In this document: in pieces, positions 11,023 through 20,766 of the stretch
How the letters are laid out: each line of letters opens with the position of its first letter
How positions within the stretch are numbered: position 1 is the first letter of the stretch
Source of the DNA: a virus
Length of the DNA stretch: 24,096 nucleotides
Reading direction: 5' to 3' (one strand)
IMG/VR virus record: IMGVR_UViG_3300025154_000382
Span: 1 to 24,096 of that record
Notes under the pieces: generated by a model
Told to the model about the DNA's origin: nothing
What the model saw: the letters and a program-made list of their open reading frames with translations, nothing else
The model's database searches: none
Position numbers and translations under genes: made by a program

Positions 11023-11568
11023 TTAAAAATAGTCAAGTGAGCACTTACTACCATCATAATCAAAAGAATTAAGATATATATTTATTTCTTTATCAAATTC
11101 TATTCTTTTATCTTCAAGCGATTTTCTTATTCTATCCGCTTTCATTTTATCAGTTACTATAGGTCTTATTTTTTGCATTGCAATAGCTAGATTTTTTTTA
11201 TGATCTTCTGATAATTTTCTTCCGATCATCGCTTTTGATCTTTTTTCTTTTCCTTCATCAGACATTTTTATGCCTAATGAGCTTTTTGCAGTAGGATTTA
11301 AGTTGTATCCATTTTTAACTGAATCATAAATATCAATAGCGCGCTGTTCATACATTAAAAGATTATTTGTATCGCAAATTATCAATCTAATAAATTCAAA
11401 TGAATCCTCTCCATACTTATTCCACGCATGTTGTAATTTGTTATTACAATGTACATTGTGGCGCAATTTGCTTTTATGTTGCTTAAGTCTTATCTTAAAT
11501 GACTTTGTGCTGCCAACATATAATTTGCCATTTATATTATTTCTTATAGCATAAATACCAGAAATCAT
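11023..11568 (-). CDS. GIY-YIG family endonuclease, homing type (181 aa)
   Basis: The catalytic domain is clear. GIYAIRNNINGKLYVGS at residues 4-20 carries both GIY and YVG motifs. Arg27 follows in IRLKQH, Glu74 in LLMYEQRAID, and Asn91 in NGYNLNPTA. The C-terminal part (MSDEGKEKRSKAMIGRKLSE) resembles the NUMOD3-type DNA-binding repeats of homing endonucleases. Free-standing enzymes of this type cut intron-less or gene-less alleles and so spread themselves among related phages. The gene is markedly more AT-rich than the portal, scaffold and capsid genes around it, has no obvious ribosome binding site, and sits between portal and scaffold, which are normally adjacent. This fits recent insertion. 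Confidence 0.85.
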   Translation of the reverse strand: MISGIYAIRNNINGKLYVGSTKSFKIRLKQHKSKLRHNVHCNNKLQHAWNKYGEDSFEFIRLIICDTNNLLMYEQRAIDIYDSVKNGYNLNPTAKSSLGIKMSDEGKEKRSKAMIGRKLSEDHKKNLAIAMQKIRPIVTDKMKADRIRKSLEDKRIEFDKEINIYLNSFDYDGSKCSLDYF

Positions 11569-19855: not shown

Positions 19856-19870
19856 TGTAATCGGATTACA
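19856..19870 (+). repeat. 15-bp dyad, copy 3
   Basis: Exact TGTAATCGGATTACA, 15 bases upstream of the leftward promoter's -35. It also occupies most of the spacer of a weaker minus-strand promoter-like pair (TTGACA at 19880-19875, TACAGT after 16 bases). Confidence 0.9.
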
Positions 19871-20052
19871 CTTTTTGTCAATAAATCTGTTCACGCTACC
19901 TGCTTTGTTCATTTTTGATGAACATTCCATAAATGTGCATGTTCGTTCCCAATTTGGGTATATCAGCCAAGTTTGCGCATGATGATTCGCATATAATTTA
20001 ACCAATATTCCAAATTACCAGCAGATTTTAATAAATAATGGCAAATCGGAAC

Positions 20053-20067
20053 TGTAATCGGATTACA
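20053..20067 (+). repeat. 15-bp dyad, copy 4
   Basis: Exact TGTAATCGGATTACA. It is flanked on both sides by CAAATC(G/C)G-like sequences (20042 and 20072), a possible secondary site. Confidence 0.9.
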
Positions 20068-20085
20068 CCTTCAAATCCGTGAAAA

Positions 20086-20118
20086 GTTATACTTCCTTTC
20101 TAGGATAAATAGTATAAC
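20086..20118. promoter_or_regulatory. Long dyad in the control region
   Basis: GTTATACT (20086-20093) and AGTATAAC (20111-20118) are perfect 8-bp arms, with a further TCCT/AGGA pair inside. There is no T-run, so it is more likely a protein site or cruciform than a terminator. Confidence 0.5.
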
Positions 20119-20209
20119 TCTATTCAAGAATCAGGAACTCACGATTACACTTGGTCACTTAGGATGGGACTATGTTAAACGTATTCTGTATTCAAGAATT
20201 AAGAATAGA

Positions 20210-20224
20210 TGTAATCGGATTACA
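20210..20224 (+). repeat. 15-bp dyad, copy 5
   Basis: Exact TGTAATCGGATTACA, 38 bases before copy 6, so the two could bind a protein on nearly the same face of the helix. Confidence 0.9.
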
Positions 20225-20247
20225 GAGTTTAGACTTTACTTTAAGAG

Positions 20248-20262
20248 TGTAATCGGATTACA
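20248..20262 (+). repeat. 15-bp dyad, copy 6
   Basis: Exact TGTAATCGGATTACA, 37 bases before the -35 of the rightward promoter, centred about 79 bases upstream of the predicted start. Confidence 0.9.
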
Positions 20263-20299: not shown

Positions 20300-20327
20300 T
20301 TGACTTGGTTGGTGGAATGTGGATAAT
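20300..20327 (+). promoter_or_regulatory. Rightward promoter before the structured RNA
   Basis: TTGACT (20300-20305), a 16-base spacer and GATAAT (20322-20327). Transcription would begin near 20334. The -10 overlaps a DnaA box (TGTGGATAA, 20318-20326), so DnaA binding could interfere with transcription. Confidence 0.6.
20318..20326 (-). other. DnaA box overlapping the rightward -10
   Basis: TGTGGATAA, the exact complement of the E. coli consensus TTATCCACA, in the non-coding control region. It supports an origin or replication-linked control. Confidence 0.5.
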
Positions 20328-20333
20328 GACTAC

Positions 20334-20460
20334 CTATCAGCCATTTGCGGGGCTAAATAAAGTGATGACCTAGTGTTATCAGGCATGTAGGGGAGAAATC
20401 CCGCCAACTTTATTTGGTACTGCAAACTACATGACCTGAAAGCACTAGGTCTTTTGTTTT
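20334..20460 (+). ncRNA. Structured RNA with a three-way junction and U-rich end
   Basis: GACCTAGTG (20367-20375) pairs perfectly with CACTAGGTC (20443-20451). The stem continues inward as TCAGG-CATGTAG (20379-20390) pairing with CTACATG-A-CCTGA (20427-20439) with one bulged A, so about 21-23 base pairs in all. At the top are two small hairpins, GGG-agaaat-CCC (20391-20402) and CCAA-ctttat-TTGG (20404-20417), and the unpaired joint TACTGCAAA. A U-rich tract CTTTTGTTTT follows the base of the stem, as in a terminator. A weaker outer pair ATCAGCC/GGCTGAT (20337-20343, 20461-20467) may extend the fold. It could be a small regulatory RNA or a leader switch. No known family was recognised. Confidence 0.6.
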
Positions 20461-20766
20461 GGCTGATGAAAAGTTACAAGCGATGTCAGACCTAAGTTTG
20501 CTGGCAACAAAGTCCAACTCAGAATGGAGCGCGCTCATAACAGGAATATCTGGACGCGGTAAGCAACCAGCGGATATTCCGGGCAGTGATACTGGGGGGA
20601 TAAGGGGAGAGTAAATCGCACATCGCGTCGAGGTTAGCACGATGACCCGCAAGGCTGACGAAACATACCTAATGCTCAAGTGCCAGAAGGTTGTAAAGGG
20701 ACTCCATTTCGCTAGGGATAGAGTCTCTACGCCCACAGACTCAGCACCAGAAGCTTAAAAGCGGTG
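20461..20766 (+). ncRNA. Second structured leader segment before the rightward operon
   Basis: No credible ORF is seen on the plus strand, but stems are frequent. GGAATATCTGG (20543-20553) pairs with CCAG-cg-GATATTCC (20567-20580). CAGT/ACTG and CATCG/CGATG hairpins follow. Then GAGTCT(C) at 20721-20727 can pair either with GGGACTC upstream (20698-20704) or AGACTC downstream (20737-20742), but not both. Last, CACC (20745-20748) can pair with the GGTG ribosome binding site (20763-20766) over a small GCT/AGC hairpin. The segment is G-rich and higher in GC than nearby genes. It may be a long untranslated leader or part of a larger RNA. Confidence 0.4.

Follow-up and report, generated by a model that had tools for sequence, protein, structure and literature searches.

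The sequence analysed here (the window) is an IMG/VR virus record of 24 kb (24,096 nucleotides). Terminase, capsid and exonuclease genes are read leftward, and a rightward operon starts with the element of interest, at 20334-20467. An ORF at 11023-11568 on the minus strand, starting MISGIYAIRNNINGKLYVGSTK, appears by eye to be GIY-YIG endonuclease-like. A sigma-70-like promoter, reported upstream of the hairpin in a first-pass annotation of this DNA, was indeed present at 20300-20327 on the plus strand (TTGACT-16-GATAAT, 10/12 match), and we infer that transcription starts at approximately 20333-20336. On the 5' side of the promoter lies a 15-bp palindrome, TGTAATCGGATTACA (20248-20262, no strand assigned), which is one of eight exact copies in the window (7494, 12784, 19856, 20053, 20210, 20248, 21405 and 23724). 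A search for this pattern on both strands with up to three mismatches gave 17 matches, as against 0.75 expected by chance, and four exact copies fall within 19856-20262. These palindromes are probably operators of some regulator.

All features of the element are on the plus strand. Its principal hairpin (fold T) has a stem of 21 bp, composed of an outer part, P2o (20367-20377/20441-20451, 11 bp), present in the fold and in an alignment of eight sequences, and an inner part, P2i (20381-20390/20427-20437, 10 bp), whose 5' strand carries the conserved AGGCAUGUAG. The 3' strand of the whole stem thus spans 20427-20451. The stem had been described as long and interrupted by one bulge; the bulge is a single A (20434), and a 3x3 internal loop is present as well. 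The two apical hairpins and the U-rich 3' tract of that description were also found: the apical hairpin P3 (GGGA-GAAA-UCCC, 20391-20402) forms in both folds considered here, and the U-tract, UUUUGUUUU, follows the stem directly at 20452-20460 and occurs in all homologues. The limits proposed for the structure, 20334-20460, were correct as far as they went, but the element reaches 20467, as AUCAGCC at the presumed 5' end of the transcript (20336-20342) pairs with GGCUGAU (20461-20467) to form P1. This helix is kept in all members. Because its 3' strand is made only after the U-tract, P1 was dropped as part of any decision made at that tract, and its conservation counts against the leader model proposed below. 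Folding of 20300-20480 gave a z-score of -6.4, and none of 200 shuffled sequences folded as well.

No Rfam 15 family was found over 20334-20467, the best overlapping match being snoU13 at 15.7 bits (cut-off 46), and direct searches in phage genomes together with E-value-mode Rfam scans likewise revealed no known family. To that extent the element is, as first proposed, an RNA of no recognised type; a weak match to a known family farther downstream, considered below, had been overlooked. A literature search, with most subscription journals outside its scope, found no paper describing the element. A tRNA was rejected on analysis of the element, and an HDV-like ribozyme was considered and dropped, as no equivalent of P4 or J4/2 is seen.

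The original description involved one fold. The hairpin exists, but a second, competing fold (R) had been missed, and it covaries even better. In fold R, a 5' arm at 20344-20363 (PK1a, 20344-20350; PK2a, 20356-20363; repeat I4) pairs with a 3' arm at 20407-20426 (PK2b, 20407-20414; PK1b, 20420-20426), which lies within the loop of the T hairpin. Hairpin H2 (20364-20380, with 20364-20369 paired to 20375-20380), which belongs to fold R, keeps the terminator stem's 5' strand occupied. H2 is kept with different letters in different alleles: UGAUGAC/GUUAUCA in the window, UGAUAAC/GUUAUCA in L107 and UAAUAGCC/GGUUAUUA in L123. The same is true of H0, an early hairpin (AGCC/GGCU, 20339-20354) that is incompatible with both P1 and fold R. 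H3 (GGC/GCC) did not vary among the five alleles in which it was checked. The conserved AUGUAG at 20385-20390 is predicted to be left free in R, and its partners are the bases with which the invading strand of T begins, which suggests that it may act as a toehold for invasion of R by T. Because the linker between the R 5' arm and the 5' strand of the T stem is only 2-3 nt, and the R 3' arm abuts the 3' strand of that stem, the 15 and 21 in-line pairs could hardly coexist. On this geometric argument the full R and T folds would be mutually exclusive; a three-dimensional pseudoknot with sharp kinks, or the pseudoknot combined with the inner stem only, is a possible alternative geometry.

Homologues were obtained by blastn on contigs with related exonuclease or terminase genes (L006, L071/L073/L074 and L076), by pattern scans of IMG/VR (L084, L107 and L131) and by a search of phage records (MW202573, here L123). 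They represent approximately six independent alleles plus near copies, L006, L074 and L076 being mutually close. When the first seven sequences were used to build a covariance model, it detected L131, which was not among them, at 92.7 bits. The pattern matches L126, L130, L135-L138, L087-L106 and L108-L114 lack the element and look like chance; those in genome contigs (L115-L121) were about as numerous as chance would give, and L121, the one inspected, is unrelated. In L084, L107 and L123 the promoter is equally placed (9-10/12, spacer of 17 nt), and in the inspected alleles a sigma-70-like promoter ends a few bases 5' of AUCAGC in P1, at a near-constant distance. A GAAC-N4-GTTC box lies between the -35 and -10 hexamers of the element promoter in L107 and L131 (L128:4389-4400; approximately 1077-1088 for the L131 promoter); it resembles the LexA-type box of some bacteria.

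In the eight-sequence alignment, 99.1% of 319 base-pair cells (T stem, P3 and the pairing of the R arms) were kept, whereas sliding the partners by 1-3 columns left 34-45% paired. Double compensatory changes were observed in 19 of 40 pairs, a level reached by none of 500 shuffles, these counts not being probabilities; the test was run on seven sequences also. The R arms were paired in 120/120 cells, with double changes in 10 of 15 pairs. This is apparent from the arms themselves: AAUAAAGU/ACUUUAUU in the window, AAGAAGGU/ACCUUCUU in L006, AAUCAGGU/ACCUGAUU in L084 and CUGUUAGU/ACUAACAG in L123. Lack of covariation had been named as one result that would count against the proposed RNA, and a hit to a known Rfam family as another; no family covers the element and covariation is strong, and folding against shuffles and compensatory changes together indicate a real hairpin that is conserved as RNA. 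The pairing helices are the most variable part of the alignment, and the core is conserved; the core, AGGCAUGUAGGG..CCCGCC, could be a binding site unrelated to termination. In a further allele, L005, PK2 is not clear, and the 5' arm did not stand out clearly from shuffled versions of it (76/500).

Folding of the growing transcript, computed as the minimum energy of truncated RNAs and not as kinetics, gave R (about -27 to -37 kcal/mol) until nt 104-111 and then T (-39 to -53 kcal/mol at the U-tract). The flip was predicted at nt 105-112, 4-15 nt 5' of the U-tract, in eight of eight nascent transcripts, one of them being that of L005, the RNA of which has no sequence match to that of the window beyond P1. 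The predicted energies of the two folds are balanced at the stop point. The arrangement is thus that of a terminator and an antiterminator, in that two conserved folds, exclusive by geometry, are present and one of them is a hairpin followed by a U-tract.

The two folds, their compensatory conservation, the promoter spacing, the U-tract and a module exchange described below are computed results; upon them we build a model of transcription start, termination, toehold invasion and regulation. According to this model, 20334-20467 is probably a co-transcriptional terminator/antiterminator leader (an attenuator) at the 5' end of the rightward phage transcript. As the RNA emerges, the 5' arm (20344-20363) would pair first with 20407-20426, and this state would hold the two strands of the later stem apart. 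Once 20427-20451 had been made, its first part would invade at the unpaired AUGUAG, converting R to T, so that a 21-bp hairpin would stand directly 5' of UUUUGUUUU, the layout of an intrinsic terminator. T is predicted to win as polymerase arrives at the U-tract, and some share of the transcripts would therefore stop there, yielding an RNA of approximately 125 nt. The timing of the R-to-T transition would govern whether polymerase reads on into the operon, and this timing would be set by factors that slow or speed the transition, such as a bound protein or RNA, or pausing. The first-pass annotation had offered three functions, and a leader switch deciding the expression of the rightward genes appears to be the best fit of these, because both mutually exclusive folds are conserved.

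The general kind, a phage leader with a decision at a terminator, is already known, and no family matches the element. In the lambda pR'-tR' leader (6S RNA), a phage promoter gives a short terminated leader, with read-through into the operon, and Q and pR'-tR' lie between ninG and the terminase genes. The element is similarly located in L107 and L131, 3' of ninB and ninG and 5' of the terminase genes, and by analogy the leader would occupy the pR'-tR' position in at least these two phages. No match to PF06530, the sole Q family searched, was found in eight records, most of which are fragments. Terminated and read-through forms also exist for IsrK, an sRNA/mRNA of Gifsy-1 (PMC4825925). With both systems the element would share a phage promoter, a short leader with a terminator layout and an operon beyond; unlike them, it has its own conserved antiterminator fold, and no sequence relation to either was found. 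Exclusive antiterminator and terminator folds are also a feature of the expression platforms of riboswitches and attenuators, but the element contains no known Rfam aptamer and its alleles have no downstream gene in common. Depending on the phage, the element is followed by a small Lar-like ORF, by methyltransferases acting on adenine or cytosine, or by small ORFs before the terminase (names partly assigned by eye), which argues against a gene-specific riboswitch; that candidate was rejected.

Alternatively, the element might be one domain, static and pseudoknotted, of a longer phage RNA (300-600 nt) of the GOLLD or ROOL kind that acts in trans; such an RNA would extend downstream with the U-tract inside the fold and no stop. 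GOLLD and ROOL are non-coding RNAs that phages encode and whose function is not known (PMC12286853); they are far larger than the element. In keeping with such an RNA, non-coding stretches of approximately 260-500 nt follow the element in all members but L076, and are homologous within L084/L107/L123 and within L005/L131 (z 9.8); P1, moreover, closes off the 5' domain with the U-tract inside it. The stretches are nevertheless of unrelated types, those of the window and L071 resembling each other chiefly in their first 60 nt, and a single 400-nt RNA common to all was rejected on this ground. They fold no better than shuffles, and in L107 and L123 they continue straight into the following ORF; L076 has the 5' element but no such stretch, and no GOLLD or ROOL match was found in Rfam. 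A larger RNA of this kind is rather unlikely. Among these stretches, L107 5720-6010, L125 1295-1580 and L123 4054-4312 are homologous non-coding segments of approximately 260-300 nt with some covarying pairs, which reach, or nearly reach, the next ORF. Two tRNA genes were identified by Rfam at 1670-1832 of the related phage contig L071.

The overlooked match mentioned above is to RF02932 (Betaproteobacteria-1 RNA), at 20543-20663 on the plus strand, with a score of 50.6 bits that is barely above the cut-off of 49.4. It does not overlap the element and is a separate downstream module. A blastn search with the RF02932 consensus also identified it in Acidovorax phage AP1 (OM049504, 11881-11979), between a primase gene and a small ORF, and there the 5' element is lacking. 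In genomes from a single bacterial class, neither RF02932 (274 genomes) nor model R1 (369 genomes) gave a match, but no positive control gave a signal either, so that this negative carries little weight.

Comparison of the related phages revealed that the locus is replaced as a unit. Identity between L107 and L131 is 93-98% across ninG and terminase, yet the element loci of these two phages could not be aligned by blastn (L128 4368-5016); judged by sequence, the locus is an exchanged module. The window and L005 have a common promoter, and their similarity ends at 20341, inside P1, after which a different RNA with the same layout follows, while L131 and L123 show 86% similarity as far as P1 extends and diverge thereafter. 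The borders of the exchanged segments thus fall in the P1 strands.

Self-specific pairing and module exchange together leave room for a trans-acting version, in which a short terminated RNA would pair through its loop with the 5' arm of nascent leaders of the same allele, block R and enforce termination, so shutting that operon; the outcome would be immunity or copy control exerted by RNA only and specific to the allele. The P4 CI RNA provides a precedent, being a leader RNA that controls premature termination via self-complementary segments (PMC4825925); the element shares the self-complementary segments but differs in anatomy, and no C4 (P4 CI) match was found in Rfam. The 5' arm and loop are computed to pair at an average of -23.9 kcal/mol within alleles, as against -11.4 kcal/mol between them, so that the alleles look nearly orthogonal in pairing. 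The replacement of the locus between almost identical flanks would be expected under selection for diversity, and the pairing helices vary most around a conserved core. However, the loop is partly paired in free T-fold RNA, pairing in cis alone accounts for the self-complementarity, and a search of the records for an integrase gave none, so that lysogeny is conjectural. Action in trans is, on balance, unlikely.

Very doubtful, too, is a nascent structure that binds host RNA polymerase and makes it resist pauses or terminators farther along the operon, as does HK022 put. The put RNA is characterised by binding to the zinc-binding domain of beta' and by suppression of termination at distal sites. 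In the accessible part of its published description, put is approximately 70 nt long with two stem-loops, and putL lies at the transcription start (PMC9378689). Like put, the element is a presumed cis RNA with which a phage transcript begins, and it goes with no specific downstream gene; the lack of a PF06530 match in the eight largely fragmentary records would accord with such a mechanism. It does not have the put anatomy, however, and that same part of the description mentions neither a competing fold nor a U-tract (PMC9378689). The single terminator-like site found downstream in the window operon is the element itself, and the widely varying sequence suits an RNA-RNA switch better than a conserved polymerase surface. 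An ordinary terminator or DNA-level inverted repeat (an origin or protein site) with no RNA function is almost certainly wrong, since single base pairs covary in two competing one-strand RNA folds at a near-constant distance from the promoter, even though operator-like palindromes adjoin the element and inverted repeats are found at phage origins.

Control of phage operons is usually credited to proteins (N, Q and repressors), and RNA-only cases such as HK022 put are few. If the trans-acting reading were true, phages would escape by trading their entire promoter-proximal RNA module for another, and the occurrence of unrelated RNA alleles in near-identical phages would thereby be explained. A bistable, conserved leader that is exchanged as a module among near-identical phages, and that in some of them lies in the late-gene position, would be a new RNA decision point.
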